From a virus, in IMG/VR virus record IMGVR_UViG_3300010885_013563, positions 1-24,659 of that record: a DNA stretch of 24,659 nt, one strand, 5' to 3'. This document shows positions 11,269-23,436 of the stretch, piece after piece; position 1 is the stretch's first letter; every line of letters starts with the position of its first letter. The notes below the pieces were generated by a model. The model was not told the DNA's origin and did no database searches. It worked only from the letters and a program-made list of their open reading frames with translations. The translations under genes were made by a program, and so were the position numbers.

Positions 11269-11276
11269 TATTTAGC
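11269..11276 (-). promoter_or_regulatory. Candidate late promoter GCTAAATA
   Basis: GCTAAATA on the minus strand overlaps the stop codon of the upstream radical SAM gene and precedes the tail-fibre gene by about 28 nt. Same octamer as at 1363-1370 and 14822-14829. Confidence 0.35.
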
Positions 11277-12240
11277 TGGTTTTTACTTTCCAGTTCTGCT
11301 TCAGGTAATGGCTACGTTCAAGATTCTGCCCTACTGCGTTTGGACCCGAAAATCCGCACATGTTACATACTTTTTCGGGAGTATCTTGGGCTGCAAACCA
11401 TTGTTCTATATCATCATCTGACGAATAAGCAGATAGTTTCTTATAGTCATTGACATACGGTTGCCAAGCGGGTTTATCATTGATATTAAAAGTAGTTAAC
11501 GAATGTTCCAGCACCCCAACAGGCGGGCATTTGTAAATATCTCCTTTGTATAGTGTAACAAAATATCTAGCTTGACAATGTTTATGATTTTCTTCGTAGT
11601 GTGTATCATTATAATCATACACAGGCATCATTGTTTCCCCGTATCCGGTATAATGTGTACACCATGCCAGTTTATGCATTTCACATATAACGTAATTTAG
11701 GTTACCGGCCCGTCCTGGAGCCCATTCTAAATTATACCAAAACTTTTCCCAAGTATCATCCCATAGTACCCACTGTGAATTTTCCCACCCCGGTAACGTT
11801 TTTCTGTAATCAAATATCCGATCTTTGAGAATAACTGACTTTTCTTTAACCGTGGAAAGATATGGTTCTGCGGCAGTTTGTATACTAATAACTACGCTTA
11901 AATCTACGTCAGGATTAAACAGTTCCTCTAAGTTATCAATTAACCGGTCTAGATAATATCCATTGGTGTTAACTTTAATTTGCGGTCTTGGCCCCCAAAT
12001 GCGTCGGACTTCTTTTGCCCAATTTACAAAGTCTGGGTGCAACAACGGTTCACCGCCAAATATTGTAATTGAATTTGGATCTAGTTTTTCAGCCCAAAAT
12101 TCCATCCATTGAATACTCTCATCTAAATCTACTAGACCTTTTATTTTTTTATGATTACTGTGTGTGAGACAACCAAAACAATCAAGATTACATGATCGTA
12201 TAATTGGTATATCTAAATGTTTAAAATTGATTCGTTCCAT
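11272..12240 (-). CDS. Radical SAM enzyme with C-terminal Cys-rich domain
   Basis: 322 residues. The radical SAM motif C17-N-L-D-C21-F-G-C24 (C-x3-C-x2-C) binds a [4Fe-4S] cluster that cleaves S-adenosylmethionine. G-G-E-P at 62-65 is the usual SAM-binding segment, and KVNTNG at 89-94 is a later barrel strand. The C-terminal part holds Cys222, Cys238 (GDIYKCPP), Cys292 and Cys295, a SPASM- or twitch-like pattern for an auxiliary cluster, as in enzymes that modify peptides. The substrate is unknown. It starts in a TAATG overlap with a nuclease gene and ends the IscU-IscA operon, so its cluster supply may come from the same transcript. Confidence 0.85.
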   Translation of the reverse strand: MERINFKHLDIPIIRSCNLDCFGCLTHSNHKKIKGLVDLDESIQWMEFWAEKLDPNSITIFGGEPLLHPDFVNWAKEVRRIWGPRPQIKVNTNGYYLDRLIDNLEELFNPDVDLSVVISIQTAAEPYLSTVKEKSVILKDRIFDYRKTLPGWENSQWVLWDDTWEKFWYNLEWAPGRAGNLNYVICEMHKLAWCTHYTGYGETMMPVYDYNDTHYEENHKHCQARYFVTLYKGDIYKCPPVGVLEHSLTTFNINDKPAWQPYVNDYKKLSAYSSDDDIEQWFAAQDTPEKVCNMCGFSGPNAVGQNLERSHYLKQNWKVKTS

Positions 12241-12938: not shown

Positions 12939-13265
12939 TTATACTTTGAAACTTTCTCCACAACCGCATCGGGCTGTTTCGTTTGGGTTGATGAACTCAA
13001 AGCCTTCATTGAGTCCTTGTCGTTTATAATCCATAACTAATCCACTAACATAGGGCAAGTCTTTACCATTAACCCATACTGTTACTCCATTACTTTCGTA
13101 AGTCATCCAATCACGAGTAGCAAACGGAGTGTCAATATATTCTAATTTATAAGCAAGTCCAGAGCAGCCAGTGGTTCTAACACCAACTGTGATACCAATT
13201 CCCTTGCCACGTTTCTCAATATGCTTTAAAACTTTTGTTGCTGCTATTTCAGTTAACTGTATCAT
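12939..13265 (-). CDS. iscA: IscA/HesB-type Fe-S cluster carrier
   Basis: 108 residues, the length of E. coli IscA (107). A-type carriers take Fe-S clusters from scaffolds and hand them to target enzymes in the cytoplasm. The three cluster-binding cysteines are Cys34 (T-T-G-C-S-G), Cys100 and Cys102 (C-G-C-G-E-S-F), one residue off the E. coli numbering. The middle (NGVTVWVNGKDLPYVSGLVMDY) fits the family core. It overlaps the end of iscU by 17 nt, so the two are co-expressed. A-type proteins are known from several marine phages; the pairing with IscU is less usual. Could be called SufA/ErpA-like, but length and partner favour IscA. Confidence 0.9.
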   Translation of the reverse strand: MIQLTEIAATKVLKHIEKRGKGIGITVGVRTTGCSGLAYKLEYIDTPFATRDWMTYESNGVTVWVNGKDLPYVSGLVMDYKRQGLNEGFEFINPNETARCGCGESFKV

Positions 13266-13635
13266 GTTTGGCCTTGTAGTCTGCTATCGCGCTTTTAATA
13301 GCGTCCTCGGCCAGTATACTACAATGTATCTTGACTGGAGGTAACGCAAGAGACTCCGCGATTTCAGTATTTTTGATGCAGGCAGCTTCACCCAGCGTTT
13401 TGCCCTTGAGCCACGTCGTGATGAGCGAACTTGACGCAATGGCTGAGCCGCATCCATAAGTTTTGAATTTTGCATCTGTAATGACATTGTCTTCTACTTT
13501 AATTTGGAGTTGCAGTACGTCTCCGCAGGCTGGTGCTCCGACTAGCCCTGTACCAACACTGGAATCATTTTTATCTAGTTTGCCAACATTGCGGGGATTT
13601 TCGTAATGATCTAAGACTTCACTTGAGTAAGCCAT
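13249..13635 (-). CDS. iscU: IscU-type Fe-S cluster scaffold
   Basis: 128 residues, the same as E. coli IscU. Scaffold on which Fe-S clusters are built from sulfur supplied by IscS. All ligand residues are present: Cys37 and Asp39 (G-A-P-A-C-G-D), Cys62 (Y-G-C-G-S-A) and His104-Cys105. The LPPVK motif, residues 98-102, is the HscA chaperone-binding site, so the protein should still dock on the host HscA/HscB system. No cysteine desulfurase is seen in the window, so host IscS would be needed. Has its own promoter (13656-13684) and AGGAG 7 nt before the ATG, and leads an operon of iscA, a nuclease and a radical SAM enzyme. Confidence 0.93.
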   Translation of the reverse strand: MAYSSEVLDHYENPRNVGKLDKNDSSVGTGLVGAPACGDVLQLQIKVEDNVITDAKFKTYGCGSAIASSSLITTWLKGKTLGEAACIKNTEIAESLALPPVKIHCSILAEDAIKSAIADYKAKHDTVN

Positions 13636-16343: not shown

Positions 16344-16739
16344 TTAAGCTACTGTGAAGCTTGTACCGTCAGTTACGTCTGTACCAGTAATATCAACACC
16401 ATTGGCACCAACGCTTGTACCTAGAGCACGGATTGCTGTTTGGATAACGCTTGCTGCTGGTGCATTAACACCATCAGTAATTACGTATACTAAACCAGTG
16501 CTGGCTGCTACTGCAGAATATGCTAATACTCCCTGTGGGAATTGAAGCATAATGATTTCAAATAGTTCATTAACTGCATCATCTTCAGCTTGTAAATTAA
16601 TATTGCTATTACTAACGTCTTGTACTTGTACTTTATAGAACTTTAAGCTAGCACCAACTTGTGCACCGCTAGTACCATTTAGTGTGCCAACTGCACCTGT
16701 GTACGCATATCCTGCGCTGCGAGTTACTCCGATTGCCAT
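16344..16739 (-). CDS. Small virion protein, related to its neighbour (paralogue A)
   Basis: 131 residues, rich in Ala, Gly, Val, Thr and Ser with few charges, typical of capsid decoration or tail-tube-like proteins. It begins MAIGVT and shares with the gene at 16839-17267 this start, a V-x-A-Y turn in the middle and the block SVIQ(T/S)xI(R/Q)ALG(T/S)(S/N)(V/I)GA near the C-terminus, so the two arose by duplication. It is a single-gene unit: GATAAATA late element, 5' GNRA hairpin, AAGGAG 7 nt before the ATG, and its own terminator. That expression arrangement suggests a high-copy structural protein. No Pfam-type domain recognised. Confidence 0.75.
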   Translation of the reverse strand: MAIGVTRSAGYAYTGAVGTLNGTSGAQVGASLKFYKVQVQDVSNSNINLQAEDDAVNELFEIIMLQFPQGVLAYSAVAASTGLVYVITDGVNAPAASVIQTAIRALGTSVGANGVDITGTDVTDGTSFTVA

Positions 16740-16838: not shown

Positions 16839-17267
16839 TTAGGCTAGTTTGATACCGCCGGTACTAGTTACTGCTGCACTTGAACAGTTAACTGTGCTAT
16901 ACGCACCAATATTGCTACCTAATGCTTGAATAACGCTTTGCATTGAAGCGTCGCTATCCCATCCACTACGCTCAACGATAACGCTCAATTGTGCTGTTGA
17001 ACCTGTACTATCAACTTGATATGCTAGAACTGATGCGTTTGAGCTGATAGCTTTTAATAGTGTCTCAACTGCGCCAACTCTAACAGCACCTGGCTCTTGT
17101 AGTTCTGCTGCTAAGTTAGCAGTAACACCAAAAGTAGTTAGTTTGTATGCTGCGATTGGGCTTGCGATACCTGTGTTGATGATTTTTGCATTTGCGTAGA
17201 ACTGACCTGTGCCTACGTTGTTTACACCAGCTGAACTGCCGTGTACTTTAGTTACTCCGATTGCCAT
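16839..17267 (-). CDS. Small virion protein, related to its neighbour (paralogue B)
   Basis: 142 residues of the same low-charge, Ala/Ser/Val/Thr-rich composition as paralogue A, starting MAIGVTKVHG. Strand-rich (YKLTTFGVTANLAAEL, VLAYQVDSTGSTAQLSVIVE) with the shared block SVIQALGSNIGA near the C-terminus. Single-gene unit with an exact TATAAATA, a 5' GNRA hairpin, AGGAG before the ATG and a UUCG terminator. The strong, isolated expression signals suggest an abundant capsid or tail component, possibly a decoration protein; this is inference from context. Confidence 0.75.
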   Translation of the reverse strand: MAIGVTKVHGSSAGVNNVGTGQFYANAKIINTGIASPIAAYKLTTFGVTANLAAELQEPGAVRVGAVETLLKAISSNASVLAYQVDSTGSTAQLSVIVERSGWDSDASMQSVIQALGSNIGAYSTVNCSSAAVTSTGGIKLA

Positions 17268-17317: not shown

Positions 17318-18430
17318 TTAGTCATTTTTCGCAAAATTGGCTGCAGAAAATACTTCTCGATCTACAATTTTCACTAGTCCTTGTGGGGTAGGAAACACAA
17401 ATCCTTCACCGGCTGGCTGTCCATTTACGTACTCTTCTAGCCCTTGCACTTGCGGTGCCAGTTGTTTAGCTAGATTTTGTTTAAATGCATAGATACTGTT
17501 CCATATTGCTTTTAGGCCCACATAGCCTGGGCTTTCTACAATTTGTCCATTGGGATCTTGTGCAAATAAACTGCCACTGTGATCGTCACCGGCCAGAGCT
17601 TGATATTGTTTTCCACTTACATTAGCGGCTAGCCAATCGTGCAATGCTTCCCTGGTCTGGCCTGTAATAAATTTATTAAAGTATGTTTTAATTCTATCCC
17701 TAGCACTCTGCGGAACGGTACTTAGCAATTGATCAACTGCAGCCCCATACTTCTGTAGTGCAGCATCTGCAGCCCGTTCTTGTTGTACTGGAGTTTTTAA
17801 TACAAATCTATTTCCTGCAGTTGGACTTATAATTGCCACGCCACCAGGCACTGCGGCTAATCCTTTGCCGTTCCATTGCACAGGTGTTGCACCTCTCTCA
17901 GAGTAGTATTGATGTACTACAACTCCACCCGATGTACCGGCTATTTGTTTGCCCAATGGACTACCAAGTGGGATACGATATTCTACTAAGTTTGGACGAA
18001 ACACAAACTTACCTTGTACTGATTGTAGTTGACCAGCATACAATAAATCACCCCAATAAAATCCAGGACCTTGTACTGCTGCATTTAACCCTGGCCAAAT
18101 TACTTCTAATAAATCGTATAAGCTACCACGTAGATTACCCGACGCTTTGTTAGCATCATATGTCTTCCAATCTTCTACGCTCTTAGCCAATGCACCAGCA
18201 TCCCACATATACTTGTCCATTACTGCCAATTGGCCATCTTTATCGCGGCCAAATATTAATGCTGGCTTACCGTCCCACTTAATTGTTAAATTAGTGGGAT
18301 TTGCAATAACAGATTTAAGTCCAGCTACTTGCTGTGCTGCTGCGGCACTACCTTGAAAGATAGCATCTTCGGGGTGCGGTGTACGAGGATCTGCTGCCTC
18401 GGTGAGCATGTTGATAAAATCTAATATCAT
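17318..18430 (-). CDS. Ligase-like covalent nucleotidyltransferase candidate
   Basis: 370 residues. Elements matching the DNA/RNA ligase and capping-enzyme superfamily are visible in order. Motif I is K51-W-D-G54, where Lys51 would take the AMP or GMP. A strand-turn-strand follows (ALIFGRDKDGQLAVMDKYM). A motif III-like F-Y-W-G-D-L-L-Y is at 124-131, motif IV E342-G-F-V-F and motif V L-V-K354-I-V. The 210 residues between III and IV are longer than usual, so this may be a divergent family (I recall DUF6267 for similar phage proteins). The N-terminus MILDFINMLTEAAD resembles a T4 capsid-targeting sequence with an L-T-E cleavage site after residue 11. Coupled by ATGA to a pol-beta-type nucleotidyltransferase. 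Function is inferred, not shown. Confidence 0.6.
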   Translation of the reverse strand: MILDFINMLTEAADPRTPHPEDAIFQGSAAAAQQVAGLKSVIANPTNLTIKWDGKPALIFGRDKDGQLAVMDKYMWDAGALAKSVEDWKTYDANKASGNLRGSLYDLLEVIWPGLNAAVQGPGFYWGDLLYAGQLQSVQGKFVFRPNLVEYRIPLGSPLGKQIAGTSGGVVVHQYYSERGATPVQWNGKGLAAVPGGVAIISPTAGNRFVLKTPVQQERAADAALQKYGAAVDQLLSTVPQSARDRIKTYFNKFITGQTREALHDWLAANVSGKQYQALAGDDHSGSLFAQDPNGQIVESPGYVGLKAIWNSIYAFKQNLAKQLAPQVQGLEEYVNGQPAGEGFVFPTPQGLVKIVDREVFSAANFAKND

Positions 18431-19170
18431 TGAAACTTATCGCTATATGTTCTGAACCAGGCCGCTGTGCCCGGGGTAGGTGCCGCTTCAGGTAATTGTA
18501 TATCACTGTGTGCCAGTGTTTCTCTTGCTGCAGCTATCAATTGATTGTAGTCAGGTCGTTTACTAACGGCATCAACGATATCATCTGGGGAATTTAACTT
18601 GGCAACTGGTATGCCAGTCACCTTGCTTAGTGTGGCAGGACTCTTGCCATTTTCTATTGTAGTGTTTGTTACACGATCTACTAGACCGTTTTTATAACTC
18701 CACTTGAGTCCTGGGTGCAATGCTGTCACAATACTGGCCAATATAACATGTCGACTCATACCAGTTAACTTGCTTCCTTCGGCAGCACCACTCATACTAA
18801 ACGATTGCCAGTCTGGTTCACCAAACATTAAGTCAGCTTGTACAAAGCCGTTACTGGGATCGCCAGCAATGGGAGTTTTAACGTGTACACTATCACCAGA
18901 CTTCTTAATGCTATTCTTATCTACACCATTAGCTAACAAAGTTTGAACTAATGTATCTTTATCTAATTTAGATTCATCTACTGATAAATCCAGGTCTCCG
19001 GAACTTGATTTACGTCCTGTGGTACCCAACCATGACGACTCAGGAAAAGCTAGTCCCGTTGTACTCTCAAGCCACTTAATAGTAGCAGGCACATCTTCAC
19101 GATTAATACGCTGTGTTAGTGGTTCCTTGTTGGGTCCTTTAAATACGTTCCCGCCCTCATTAACTACCAT
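18427..19170 (-). CDS. Pol-beta-type nucleotidyltransferase
   Basis: 247 residues. The nucleotidyltransferase signature is clear: L-G-T-T-G-R-K-S-S-S-G-D59-L-D61-L at 48-62, giving the helix-turn and paired metal-binding Asp residues, with a third candidate Asp113 on the strand F-V-Q-A-D-L-M-F. Such enzymes transfer a nucleotide to RNA, protein or small molecules. The C-terminal part is helical and ends AAWFRTYSDKFQ. AAGGAG lies 8 nt before ATG 19170. It overlaps the 82-residue gene upstream by 11 nt and the ligase-like gene downstream by 4 nt, so the three form one coupled unit. Substrate unknown; RNA end repair or tagging with its partner is the best guess. Confidence 0.75.
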   Translation of the reverse strand: MVVNEGGNVFKGPNKEPLTQRINREDVPATIKWLESTTGLAFPESSWLGTTGRKSSSGDLDLSVDESKLDKDTLVQTLLANGVDKNSIKKSGDSVHVKTPIAGDPSNGFVQADLMFGEPDWQSFSMSGAAEGSKLTGMSRHVILASIVTALHPGLKWSYKNGLVDRVTNTTIENGKSPATLSKVTGIPVAKLNSPDDIVDAVSKRPDYNQLIAAARETLAHSDIQLPEAAPTPGTAAWFRTYSDKFQ

Positions 19171-19408
19171 CTTTGAATCTCCTTACACCTCGATTAAATT
19201 TTGTAGGATCCTGTGCTCTGATACTATTCAATAGTCTACGCTCTAGCTCGGCTGCTTGCTCGGGATTGTAGTTTTCCTTGATATAATTAATCAAATTAAT
19301 AGCACCTGAGATAACGTGCCCAGCGCGGCTTTCCACAAGATTCTCCCTGTCTTTAGTGACAGGCATGTGTGCTAGCTCATCTAAGATACTACGAGTACGC
19401 TTTTGCAA
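19160..19408 (-). CDS. Small conserved phage protein, unknown function
   Basis: 82 residues from a TTG start at 19408, chosen because GGAG lies 6 nt upstream; the next in-frame ATG (Met15) has no such site. Basic and helical (RTRSILDELAHM, SRAGHVISGAINLINYIKENY, AAELERRLLNSIRAQDP). The pattern resembles short proteins I recall from uncultured marine T4-like phages. First gene of the unit with the nucleotidyltransferase and ligase-like protein, possibly read from the AATAAATA at 19428-19435. Could be a nucleic-acid-binding partner; not shown. Confidence 0.65.
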   Translation of the reverse strand: MQKRTRSILDELAHMPVTKDRENLVESRAGHVISGAINLINYIKENYNPEQAAELERRLLNSIRAQDPTKFNRGVRRFKDGS

Positions 19409-19427: not shown

Positions 19428-19435
19428 TATTTATT
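19428..19435 (-). promoter_or_regulatory. Candidate late promoter AATAAATA
   Basis: AATAAATA on the minus strand, 7 of 8 bases of the T4 late consensus, overlapping the stop of the radical SAM gene and about 20 nt before the TTG start at 19408. If used, the nucleotidyltransferase/ligase-like unit is late. Confidence 0.35.
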
Positions 19436-20555
19436 AAAGATATCTGGAATAATATTCCGCAACTTCGGGGAATACTCTGCGCCAATCTTGATTTCTAATT
19501 TTATCATGTATTGCAGTTTCCCGTAGCATAGTTTTAATTTTTTCCGGATTTTCTCTCCAGTCCGGAGGCAACATTCTGAGAGTTTCTTTATTGGCCAGCG
19601 CAGCTACATATTCTTCTGTTATTGTATCGATGCTAAGAAAATCGTGAATAGCTAGTTGTCTAGAATGATTGGTTATATCTCCTAATCTATTGGTACTAAA
19701 ATTAGACTGTACCCATTGTAAAACTTCATCTGTATAAAGCAAGTTAAAATTGCATAATGTTTCTTGAATAATAAACATTACATTAACTGGTAAATTCTCT
19801 TTAAGTTGTAAAATATTATCCGATACTTGATTCCAATCGCCGGGCCATCTGAGATAATTGAATCTTTCACCAATTCCATCAATACTAATTATGAATTTTA
19901 CTAAATGAAATTTTTCAATTAATTCATAATATTTTGGATCCACTGATTGAGTACCATTGGTTTGAAAACCAAGAGTTATTTTTTTGTGAGCATCTGGAAT
20001 CAGTTTGGCTATAGCTTCGGCTGTTTTCCAGTATGTGTTTCCTAATAGGGTTTCGCCTCCGCAAAATTGTATCATTTCTACATTGGATAAGTCCAATGTT
20101 TTTAACTTGTCAATGACATTGTTTGCATCAGAGTTGGTGTTTATTTCTATAGTAGGCAAATTATTTTGTTGTAATTGTTGTTGCCATAATGTACTACTAT
20201 AAGGACCGCAGATGCGACAAGCTAAATTGCAACTACGATCAAATAATAAATCAATTCTCTGAGGGCCAGTTAGGGATTCTTTTTTTCCAAACTTGTCAAG
20301 CATGCCCAATCTAAAACTACTAGACCCCGATGCTTCCAATTGGCGGCATTCCCAACAACCATCATCCCAAACATTGTCCTTATTTGCTTGACGCAGAGGT
20401 ATAAATGTTTTGTTAGACCAAATATTCTCCTCCTCAATTGATACCAAAGGCGCAGTACTTAAACAACAGTGATTAAACCCCAATACTCCTTTATTATGGA
20501 TGTAATTGATGTTTAACCCACCATGTATCATTGGACAGTATATATCGTCGGTCAT
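19434..20555 (-). CDS. Twitch-type radical SAM enzyme
   Basis: 373 residues. The radical SAM motif C109-N-L-A-C113-R-I-C116 binds the SAM-cleaving [4Fe-4S] cluster, followed by G-G-E at 166-168 and the strands LGFQTNGT and FIISIDGIG. The N-terminal 70 residues carry Cys7, Cys30, Cys31, Cys67 and Cys70, matching the N-terminal twitch region of a radical SAM group common in large phages, which may hold an auxiliary cluster. The target is unknown; relatives of this group modify peptides or nucleosides. It overlaps the helicase gene by ATGA, so it is made with replication proteins. Confidence 0.88.
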   Translation of the reverse strand: MTDDIYCPMIHGGLNINYIHNKGVLGFNHCCLSTAPLVSIEEENIWSNKTFIPLRQANKDNVWDDGCWECRQLEASGSSSFRLGMLDKFGKKESLTGPQRIDLLFDRSCNLACRICGPYSSTLWQQQLQQNNLPTIEINTNSDANNVIDKLKTLDLSNVEMIQFCGGETLLGNTYWKTAEAIAKLIPDAHKKITLGFQTNGTQSVDPKYYELIEKFHLVKFIISIDGIGERFNYLRWPGDWNQVSDNILQLKENLPVNVMFIIQETLCNFNLLYTDEVLQWVQSNFSTNRLGDITNHSRQLAIHDFLSIDTITEEYVAALANKETLRMLPPDWRENPEKIKTMLRETAIHDKIRNQDWRRVFPEVAEYYSRYL

Positions 20556-21976
20556 TCTGTTTTGGTCTTTAAGCTGGCCAGCATTTGTTTTAATTTATTA
20601 CTGTCTACATTTGCTTGTACTTTGTTTTCAATGTTAAACCCCTCTCGAGGTTTAGCTGCAATCATTGGAGTAACTGTACTAGAGCTCTTGATTTGATCCA
20701 TTATGCCTCGACCGGTCTGGTGTCCAAAGCCACCATTCTCTGACTGTGCATCTTCACCCGGATCTGTAATGCGTAAACTTTCTATATTAAACTCTAAGTC
20801 TACTTTAGTGCCCACACCACTACTTGAACGTGTTTTCATTAATTGTATTTGATAACGACCGCGCTCTTTCATTGCACGACTTGTAAAGATACCAAACACA
20901 TTATCTGCTGTGTTAATTTTACTTATACCACCACTAATATGACTATGGTCAAATTCAATCTCTTCTACAGCACTACGATTCAACTGCGATGCAGTAATCA
21001 TTAATATATTAAATTCTTTGGCTAGGTTGCGTAGTTCTTCACTCACGTACTTGTCTTTAACAAACAAGTCACTGGGACTGACCTTGGCACTGACCGGCAT
21101 TACCAAGTCCAGGTAGTCAACCATGATAAAGTCTGTTTGCATACCTGTTTGTATTTGTAATTCTTTCAAGTATGCCCGTATCTGATTCACATTGCTCTGT
21201 GCTGGCATGTACTTGATACGCAACTTGCCAGACTTTTTACCTACCATGCGAATCTTCATTTCCAGTGTGTCTAGATCCTTAAAGATCTCCTTGGTGCTAC
21301 AGTTTGCTACCATGGCATCCATACGCATGGCAGTAAGGCCTTCACTGAGTTCTAGTGTTAGGAACACACCATTAAGTCCTGCAGTCATCCAGTTAATAGC
21401 AATGTTCTGCATAAACAAACTTTTACCTGAACCGGATCCACCAGCAAAAATGTTTAGTTCACCTCTATTCATGCCGCCAAACAATCTTGCATCCATGGTA
21501 GGCCAGCCTGTACTCACTTGTCCGTTGTTGCTCTTGATTGCTAATAAACGAGCACGAGGATCTTCAAAGTAATCTGTGCCCATGTCTTTGGTCAAACTAA
21601 TTTGTACTGCGTCCTTGATCAGTTTCTCTACAGGATCGTACTCACCTTTTTCTAATAAGTCTGCTGCTTTAAGGATAGCACGTTCAAGTTCATTGCGCCT
21701 ACTAAATCCTTCAAACTCTTCCAGGAACCAGTTGTAGTGTCCTTCAATCATGTCCGGCACCGGTCTTAGTTCTACACCCGTGGTTGCTCGAATTTGATCT
21801 CTAGTGGGCAGGGTTTTATGATCATCGCTGTGCTTCTTAATAAACTCAGCTGTAGTGCGTAAACTGCGATCAAAGTTCTCGGGATTATAAATGTTCTGCA
21901 CACGCACATAAGTTTCTGCGTCTTGCAGCATCATTTCCAAAAATAGTTTTTGTATGTCGGCGTTGTAATCTTTCAT
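20552..21976 (-). CDS. DnaB-family replicative helicase (T4 gp41-like)
   Basis: 474 residues, the size of T4 gp41 (475). The N-terminal domain (1-150) is helical and would bind primase. The RecA-fold motor starts STGWPTMDARLFGGMNRGELNIFAGG. Walker A is G-G-S-G-S-G-K185-S186, Walker B I-M-V-D287-Y-L-D, and the later ITASQLNRSAVE and Q-L-M-K-T-R-S-S segments are the usual sensor and arginine elements. It unwinds DNA 5' to 3' as a hexamer at the fork. The C-terminal 60 residues are polar and probably flexible. It is coupled by ATGA to radical SAM genes on both sides. Confidence 0.95.
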   Translation of the reverse strand: MKDYNADIQKLFLEMMLQDAETYVRVQNIYNPENFDRSLRTTAEFIKKHSDDHKTLPTRDQIRATTGVELRPVPDMIEGHYNWFLEEFEGFSRRNELERAILKAADLLEKGEYDPVEKLIKDAVQISLTKDMGTDYFEDPRARLLAIKSNNGQVSTGWPTMDARLFGGMNRGELNIFAGGSGSGKSLFMQNIAINWMTAGLNGVFLTLELSEGLTAMRMDAMVANCSTKEIFKDLDTLEMKIRMVGKKSGKLRIKYMPAQSNVNQIRAYLKELQIQTGMQTDFIMVDYLDLVMPVSAKVSPSDLFVKDKYVSEELRNLAKEFNILMITASQLNRSAVEEIEFDHSHISGGISKINTADNVFGIFTSRAMKERGRYQIQLMKTRSSSGVGTKVDLEFNIESLRITDPGEDAQSENGGFGHQTGRGIMDQIKSSSTVTPMIAAKPREGFNIENKVQANVDSNKLKQMLASLKTKTE

Positions 21977-23436
21977 GATGTCCTATTTTCTTGTTTGATA
22001 CGAATCATCCTTTTGATTTTATTTCGTGTTTCAAAATTTGAAATATTATTTTCTAATATTTTTAACATATGTTCACTGCTATCTTGTTCAAGTTGATACC
22101 CTAACGACAATGCATACTCTCTTGCATAGTTTCTTCTATATAATCTTTCTTTGAGATTTAGAGCAGGATTATTTAAGTTTATCCAATTATTTTCGTGTGT
22201 GTCTAATTCAAGATTGTATTCATGTGCATTATTATATAAAGGAGTACCGGGCAGTATTCCTAACGTAGGACCAAAATTTATATTTTTAATAATTCTATTA
22301 GCCAAGGAAGCATATCGCTTAAACATATTCAGAGTATCTTGAAAATCTTGTTCTGTCTCTGTTGGGTATCCAAATACCATTAAAAAAATACAAGTAATAT
22401 TATACTTGTCGAGCATTTCCATGGTATAGTCAAGATCCGCATTTGTGAACTTTTTATTCATATGCTCCCTGACTGAATCACTTCCGGTTTCTACACCAAT
22501 CGCCAATTTGGTTGCACCGGAATCTGCTAAATTTTTCCAATATTCCTCTGTTAATTGTGTTGCAGATCGTACAATATATTGCCCTGCCCAACTTATATTC
22601 TTTCCTTTTTTATTTTCGTCTGCAATGATAGAACAAAAGTTTTTAAATTCTTTAAGGCTTCCGTTAACTAAACTATCCGTAAATGCAAAAGTATCAATTC
22701 CGTGTTGTGTAGATAACGTGATTATTTCCTTGGCTACAGATTCTCCGGACCTATATCTATATTTCCAGTGCTCGTGTATATCACAAAAACTACAAGATCG
22801 CACACATCCTCTGCTGGCTGTAATTGGAAATAATTTTGTGTCGTATAGATCAAATTCATAATCACTGTAATCAGGTATTGGAAGTTGATCTAAATCTTCA
22901 ATTTGAGTAAAAGTATCACTGTTAATTCCGCTATAAGAAAGATTTCCTTTTAGGAGTTCTATTAGCGAAACTTCGCCTTCGCTTTTAATATAAAAGTCTG
23001 CCACATTGTGATTTAACATATCTTTAGCAAAACTTTGTGCCCCTAATATACCACCATCTATTAGACCTAAGCCGCCTAATATTATTTTTATACTTGAGTT
23101 TTCTTTAAGATGTTTACAAAAAAGTCTTGTAGCATTTTGATTCTGATATGTGAATACACTTATTCCAACAAACTCTGGATTATATGAAATAATCTCCATA
23201 ACCCAACGTTTGACTAACTGATCTGCAGTAGGATAATATTCTTCATTCATTCCGGTAGCAAAATAAGTTTCTAAATTTTGAATATCAATATTTTTTTCAG
23301 CATAAAATCTTGCATTAAAATCTATTGTTTTACACGTAAATCCAGCTTGTATCACTGATGCTTTCAGTACTGCAGGAGCAGCAGGAGGCATCAAACTTAT
23401 TGTTCCTGGAACATTAACAATCAATATATCAAGCAT
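21973..23436 (-). CDS. B12-binding-type radical SAM enzyme
   Basis: 487 residues. Residues 1-170 match a cobalamin-binding (Rossmann) domain as in many methyltransferase-type radical SAM enzymes (ILIVNVPGTISLMPPAAPAVLK, FVGISVFTYQNQNATRLF, IKIILGGLG). The usual D-x-H-x-x-G for lower-ligand binding is not seen, so cobalamin may bind base-off without His or not at all. The radical SAM motif is C211-V-R-S-C215-S-F-C218, and later strands include FAFTDSLVNG, KLAIGVETGSD and CIFLMVFGYPTET. Possible roles are C-methylation or thioether chemistry on nucleic acid, lipid or peptide. It lies between primase (8-nt overlap) and helicase (ATGA overlap). Confidence 0.85.
   Translation of the reverse strand: MLDILIVNVPGTISLMPPAAPAVLKASVIQAGFTCKTIDFNARFYAEKNIDIQNLETYFATGMNEEYYPTADQLVKRWVMEIISYNPEFVGISVFTYQNQNATRLFCKHLKENSSIKIILGGLGLIDGGILGAQSFAKDMLNHNVADFYIKSEGEVSLIELLKGNLSYSGINSDTFTQIEDLDQLPIPDYSDYEFDLYDTKLFPITASRGCVRSCSFCDIHEHWKYRYRSGESVAKEIITLSTQHGIDTFAFTDSLVNGSLKEFKNFCSIIADENKKGKNISWAGQYIVRSATQLTEEYWKNLADSGATKLAIGVETGSDSVREHMNKKFTNADLDYTMEMLDKYNITCIFLMVFGYPTETEQDFQDTLNMFKRYASLANRIIKNINFGPTLGILPGTPLYNNAHEYNLELDTHENNWINLNNPALNLKERLYRRNYAREYALSLGYQLEQDSSEHMLKILENNISNFETRNKIKRMIRIKQENRTS

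Follow-up and report, generated by a model that had tools for sequence, protein, structure and literature searches.

A phage gene trio coupling a family-X-polymerase-like nucleotidyltransferase to the ligase-like protein DUF6267, a candidate injected fill-and-seal kit

Introduction

The closest described counterparts of the locus reported here come from ASFV, jumbo phages and T4. ASFV holds a PolX (O174L) and a DNA ligase (NP419L) in its virion nucleoid, where a role in early repair of viral DNA has been proposed (PMC12172490). Jumbo phages carry RlaP together with an RNA ligase (PF10127 and PF09414), which joins a Pol-beta-superfamily nucleotidyltransferase to a ligase of the Lys-nucleotidyltransferase kind (PMC7824862). 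In T4, the first ten residues of internal proteins target them to the capsid and gp21 cleaves after [L/I]-x-E, with an anti-restriction protein among the internal proteins and Alt acting as an ADP-ribosyltransferase (PMC9026906). A further gap concerns the cyanomyoviruses, in which a g30 DNA ligase is not recognised (PMC2984593) and for which a 2010 review left open whether the DNA ligase is truly missing or unrecognised.

Here we describe three overlapping genes in a stretch of viral DNA (hereafter the window) that is a complete virus record of 24,659 bp and therefore probably a fragment of a genome. The reading that we favour, at about an even chance, is that T4-superfamily phages express this trio late and package it as a unit of cargo, in which a nucleotidyltransferase (NTase) and the DUF6267 protein form a fill-and-seal pair that is injected into the cell. 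A sequence-only reading of the same DNA had seen the two enzymes as a coupled pair, and had missed that the trio looks like virion cargo and not just a set of intracellular enzymes.

Results and discussion

Gene layout and coupling across relatives

All three minus-strand open reading frames lie where the sequence-only reading had placed them. First in the trio is a small helical protein of 82 aa with a TTG start (19160..19408) that matched phrog_11854, 'virion structural protein' (E 1.1e-17), followed by the family-X-polymerase-like NTase of 247 aa (18427..19170) and a ligase-like covalent nucleotidyltransferase of 370 aa (17318..18430). The overlaps were also as described before, at 11 nt between the small protein and NTase genes and 4 nt between the NTase and ligase genes. 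Further genes in the window encode a primase, a DnaB-like helicase, a class I ribonucleotide reductase, an endolysin, an exonuclease and radical-SAM proteins, and no gp21-type protease or capsid gene is visible within this 24.7-kb fragment.

Several neighbouring genes are recorded here for their own sake. The three radical-SAM proteins are encoded at 19434-20555, 21973-23436 and 11272-12240 (minus strand), one of them with a B12-binding match and two of the three genes interleaved with the helicase and primase genes, and a NifU-like protein is encoded at 13249-13635. Downstream of the ligase lie two small genes with similar starts (MAIGVT...; 16839-17267 and 16344-16739, minus strand), each with a [TG]ATAAATATTA-type motif in front and a terminator-like hairpin behind. 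Such genes also follow the ligase in related loci, NTase-less loci included.

Evaluating the trio across relatives revealed that the NTase and ligase are paired far beyond chance. Among 245 loci, a count that includes many near-copies, the two genes were adjacent in 110 and formed a single fused ORF in 53, and relatives kept the order small protein, NTase, ligase, so that both the proposed coupling and the conservation of the trio held up in the neighbourhood search. A tree of 113 rows showed five changes between the fused and adjacent states, with supported branches forcing five changes for the fused group, and one well-supported clade of that tree possessed the ligase without the NTase. In Atu_ph07, Phosso and PA5oct the same NTase family has a different KxDG ligase for a neighbour. 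The family-X NTase was absent from the Kyanoviridae (cyanophage) records searched. An ordinary DNA ligase was encoded elsewhere in 7 of the 18 records examined.

Departures from the common layout were seen in a number of loci. In loci L118-L149 the protein encoded between the small protein and the ligase varies from locus to locus; several of these proteins begin with MK[LI]N[ED]F..., some are rich in Gln/Pro, and in L140 and L158 a variable domain of this type is fused to the ligase or to the NTase-ligase. In L089 and L192-L198 the NTase occurs without DUF6267, in several of these loci after a HAD-like gene (DMDGVLADF), and many neighbouring genes start MRA[KNS]EF[IL]xE, so that numerous proteins of these loci may be targeted to the capsid. 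PA5oct-like Pseudomonas phages (L004 is PA5oct itself), Paride among them, keep a PolX-like NTase together with a KxDG ligase, and Atu_ph07 carries paralogous-looking genes of ~250 aa shortly after its NTase (L002:8664-10956), with PLYRG[IM].. and IM[IA][TS]G..YLA motifs.

The NTase is modelled as a family-X-type polymerase

In its AF2 model, which took the window and locus sequences as input (pLDDT 94.5, pTM 0.85), the NTase folds like the family-X DNA polymerases, and polymerase activity is predicted. Every one of the 50 PDB matches listed was a family-X polymerase (prob 1.00, best E 5e-4), namely Pol lambda, Pol mu, TdT or ASFV PolX, and in an hhalign comparison with bacterial PolX (P 0.006) the motifs of both palm and thumb aligned in register. 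The pol-beta signature pointed out from sequence was present as G49-T-T-G52, G58-D59-L-D61 and D113. The catalytic Asp59-Leu-Asp61 (codons 18988..18996, minus strand) and the third catalytic Asp, Asp113 (18832..18834, minus strand), were kept in 69/69 diverse relatives, in which G49, G52, S57, G58 and Q111 were likewise 100% conserved.

The class assignment can be narrowed from pol-beta-type to family-X-polymerase-like, with palm and thumb, and away from RlaP. An RlaP (PF10127) identity was rejected, as the NTase gave neither a Pfam match nor an hhalign alignment to the one RlaP protein compared. The NTase shares with bacterial PolX and with Pol lambda, Pol mu and TdT the Asp triad, the GDxD motif and the palm and thumb register, but it differs from them in having no recognised 8-kDa/HhH or PHP domain and in falling below Pfam thresholds. 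DNA_pol_B_thumb was the most widely shared Pfam family among its relatives, at sub-threshold level, and PF14791 was matched by 3/69 members, all below the cut-off (best E 0.025). The window NTase itself had no meaningful match in Pfam, PHROG or NCBIfam, and neither it nor the ligase directly matched a solved structure by sequence.

DUF6267 carries the motifs of a nucleotidyl-lysine ligase

The third protein belongs to DUF6267 (PF19782, function unknown; E 1.4e-31) and phrog_455. DUF6267 is a core gene of T4-like cyanophages, with ~460 records labelled "hypothetical": 371 from Synechococcus phages, 61 'Cyanophage', 24 Prochlorococcus, 4 Methylophilales and 2 Pelagibacter phage. In the same organism groups a close UvsX is present in 373, 61, 24, 4 and 2 records, so that, matched by organism name and not record by record, nearly all T4-like cyanophages sequenced so far appear to carry DUF6267. 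A tblastn search with the window protein matched 286 phage records. A host or prophage gene was rejected as an origin, with only 4 loci in the genomes of 84,980 species, all of them on marine metagenome-assembled contigs. The suggestion of an undescribed system therefore stands in part: DUF6267 was neither named nor given a function in the literature searched, but the ligase is no stand-alone novelty, as it belongs to a phage family of more than 460 records.

Ligase motifs I, III, IV and V were found in the order previously claimed. Lys51, the predicted nucleotidylated lysine of motif I (K51-W-D-G54; codon 18278..18280, minus strand), and Glu342 of the motif IV EG (17405..17407, minus strand) were invariant in 77/77 diverse relatives, together with D53, G54 and G343. 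Lys354 of motif V, K-[IL]-V-[DN]-R (17369..17371, minus strand), was kept in 76/77, as were D128 and R358, and the Ia-like K73 in 72/77; homologues have thus not lost the three residues on which the sequence-only reading had staked its ligase call. The motif III-like element is G127-D128, with Asp in place of Glu.

Structure prediction, again from window and locus sequences, gave a confident model (pLDDT 93.6, pTM 0.90). In it, motif IV is preceded by a helical insert, and a single helix behind motif V closes the protein, which has no OB-fold domain or motif VI at that place. Foldseek searches of BFVD matched PA5oct EST35_0228 (E 7e-6), an Atu_ph07 'RNA ligase' (E 9e-6) and the phiQ1 RNA ligase (E 1.6e-3); judged by their identical lengths (446 and 324 aa), the first two are apparently the KxDG genes near the NTase in those phages. 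The ten best PDB matches were all DNA or RNA ligases, weakly so, with E 0.1-0.4, low TM-scores and none passing E 0.001; ASFV ligase was at the top, and fungal tRNA ligase, archaeal Rnl, human Lig1 and Naegleria Rnl were also matched. In the Pfam scan DUF6267 alone rose above the cut-off, with PF01068 and PF09414 unmatched, while the NTase-neighbouring ligase of Atu_ph07 reached PF09414 RNA_ligase below threshold (E 0.002, 18.7 bits against a cut-off of 27). As hhalign found no match between the DUF6267 profile and any of four RNA ligases of PF09414, the ligase call rests on the motifs, the Foldseek matches and the bridge through Atu_ph07, Phosso and PA5oct. Membership of the ligase superfamily, as proposed before, is supported by the ordered motifs and by a fold matching viral RNA ligases. 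From these residues and this model we infer catalysis, with Lys51 as the residue predicted to be charged. An ordinary DNA ligase was rejected, as the protein has no Pfam match to one and differs from canonical DNA ligases in the missing OB-fold after motif V.

A possible RNA-repair pair

Rnl1/Rnl2-type ligases have no OB fold after motif V either, and the viral folds closest to the ligase are those of RNA ligases. These likenesses favour a reading in which the pair, injected or made early, would counter host anticodon nucleases, the NTase restoring cleaved tRNA or RNA and DUF6267 resealing it. A tRNA ligase and an archaeal Rnl among the PDB matches and the PF09414 match of the Atu_ph07 partner ligase point the same way, but the genes around the trio in the window showed no recognisable kinase, phosphatase or 2'-3' phosphoesterase, and the window also holds no tRNA gene. 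RlaP-Rnl pairs supply a precedent and likewise combine a Pol-beta-superfamily NTase with a lysine-charged ligase (PMC7824862), but the NTase here is family-X-polymerase-like and does not align with RlaP, DUF6267 lies below PF09414 detection, and the locus bears signals of virion cargo. RlaP itself was found in only one of 13 records searched, that of Atu_ph07, where it lies elsewhere in the genome. We regard RNA repair as a serious but rather unlikely explanation of the pair. Of the roles offered by the sequence-only reading, RNA end repair and tRNA restoration are possible given the nearest viral folds, with DNA gap repair at least as likely, and for protein modification there was no evidence.

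Late-like promoter and capsid-targeting-like starts

The T4 late promoter is TATAAATA, and NATAAATA is close to this consensus. Just before the trio, at -27 of the small gene, we found the T4-late-like promoter AATAAATA (19428..19435, minus strand). Across relatives, 85 of the 140 distinct regions examined, each covering the 100 nt ahead of the small gene, contained NATAAATA, versus 9.5 expected; among the relatives listed it lay nearly always at -26 to -28, mostly at -27/-28, despite differing preceding sequence. Over the window as a whole the T4-late-like motif was not enriched, and a scan for sigma-70-type promoters gave fewer sites than in shuffles. From its promoter, the trio looks to be expressed late.

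The N-terminus of the ligase resembles those of T4 internal proteins, and both enzymes carry a prohead-protease-like site ahead of the catalytic core. The ligase starts MILDFINMLTE|A (18398..18430, minus strand), which is T4 capsid-targeting-like with an [LI]xE|A site and has residues 1-13 disordered in the model, and the NTase starts with a putative short propeptide, MVVNE before GGN (19156..19170, minus strand), ending at a prohead-protease-like site. T4 ipII/ipIII start MKTYQEFIAEA, the ligase of L111 starts MKTYTEYLVEA, and further ligases start MRAFEFLTEA, MILDFINMLTEA and similar. Counted over related sequences that are not phylogenetically independent, T4 spacing of the capsid-targeting sequence (CTS) was seen in 69 neighbourhood plus-strand ORFs versus 9.3 expected, its EF[IL]xE form in 78 versus 6.7 expected, and the strict CTS motif in 25/126 ligases versus 1.5 shuffled. 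The strict T4 pattern misses many ligases (MLLEFITTLTEG...), and we therefore added a test for the [LIVMF]xE site. With the same dependence among sequences, 81/98 stand-alone ligases and 28/31 fusions had this site in the 14 residues that precede the ligase core, roughly double the shuffled frequency and against 16% in random windows, and the residue after it was mostly A, G or S. Its retention in fusions makes it a candidate cut between the enzymes even when they are fused. Among these related NTases, [LIVMF]xE|GG (GGN in the window) was present in 90 distinct relatives, and the few distinct ones without it begin at GG or within 1-10 residues. A gp21-type protease (PF03420) was encoded in 8/17 relatives' records, and gp21-type protease plus gp23 in most long ones. 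Cyanophage DUF6267 has no CTS-like start (MCDSTL...).

Virion data come from relatives. The PA5oct NTase is annotated as structural by ESI-MS/MS in the deposited annotation, and T4-GC190, a HIGH-type cyanophage enzyme, was detected in the S-SM1 virion (PMC3037559). The T4-GC190 gene directly follows DUF6267 and its product starts MKKFSAFLNE|A. For DUF6267 proteins themselves, no mass-spectrometric evidence of packaging was found.

The likeness to T4 ipI/II/III and Alt thus comprises the capsid-targeting-like N-terminus, the [LI]xE site, the late-like promoter and the gp21 and gp23 homologues in the trio's relatives; the difference is that this locus would load the capsid with enzymes for nucleic-acid repair. 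It could instead be that ancient enzyme folds were kept in internal head proteins whose role is structural or DNA-condensing, and the virion-type flanking genes, the promoter and the extra CTS-starting domains fused to ligases would all suit such cargo. Catalytic residues that hardly vary even among highly diverged relatives argue for active enzymes, however, and we think a purely structural role improbable.

A proposed fill-and-seal kit

Under the favoured reading of an injected repair pair, a gp21-type prohead protease would cut short N-terminal peptides from the NTase and ligase, leaving mature enzymes inside the capsid that would be delivered to the cell together with the genome. The NTase would fill a gap or extend a recessed 3' end by adding nucleotides, and DUF6267, charged with a nucleotide on Lys51, would activate and seal the break that remains. 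The combination of a family-X-like polymerase with a ligase suggests fill-and-seal repair, and late expression with packaging suggests action at the moment of entry. The likeliest substrate would be nicks and gaps in the incoming phage DNA, mended before phage genes are expressed, DNA being somewhat favoured over RNA. For the window's own proteins, packaging, injection and the DNA substrate are what we infer from these combined signals. Several findings count against this reading: the ligase has weak PDB matches and no OB-fold after motif V, it occurs in some relatives without the NTase, some of the records examined encode an ordinary DNA ligase elsewhere, and the cyanophage DUF6267 has no CTS-like start. 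Were the pair injected, nucleic acid could be mended before any phage gene is expressed, which would give a new view of how UV- or nuclease-damaged phage genomes survive, and an injected NTase-ligase might serve as a laboratory reagent.

ASFV offers a close parallel, with a small family-X polymerase and an ATP-dependent ligase packaged in the virion nucleoid. Both ASFV enzymes recur among the structural matches, PolX for the NTase and the ligase as top PDB match of DUF6267. ASFV belongs to another virus realm, no AP endonuclease was seen in this phage system, DUF6267 has no OB-fold after motif V, and the phage genes overlap or are fused.

DUF6267 and its HIGH-type partner in cyanophages

As cyanomyoviruses have no recognised g30 ligase, DUF6267 is a concrete candidate for that enzyme, with a testable catalytic lysine. 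The T4-like cyanophages that carry it are among the commonest marine viruses, and the family has no assigned function. A bolder proposal, which we hold to be possible but doubtful, is that the trio represents a prepackaged, injected polymerase-ligase kit convergent with that of ASFV, and that practically all T4-like cyanophages have in DUF6267 a ligase that has gone unrecognised. Their NMN-adenylyltransferase-like partner enzyme may provide NAD+ or recycle it.

That partner is the HIGH-type nucleotidyltransferase, which in cyanophages and several contigs is fused to DUF6267 or directly follows it, and which PHROG_455 merges with DUF6267. The ligase could accordingly be the constant element that uses whichever NTase is available, the HIGH enzyme in cyanophages, with a role in making or using NAD+ or nucleotide adducts and not in gap filling; a NAD+-fuelled ligase whose NMN is recycled would be one example. 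The best curated matches of the HIGH enzyme were NMN/NaMN adenylyltransferases (TIGR00482, TIGR01526), but these are weak (best E 3e-5, and nothing better than 0.08 against PDB), and in most NTase/ligase loci no HIGH gene is nearby. We give this explanation little chance, and a supply of NAD+ or recycling of NMN by the HIGH partner is speculation.

One further observation concerns the Pelagibacter and Methylophilales phages, in which the gene directly upstream of DUF6267 (L096:4941-5999, L097:4923-6008), without a meaningful family match in the Pelagibacter phage, encodes a nuclease-looking TD.....[IF]SLK motif.
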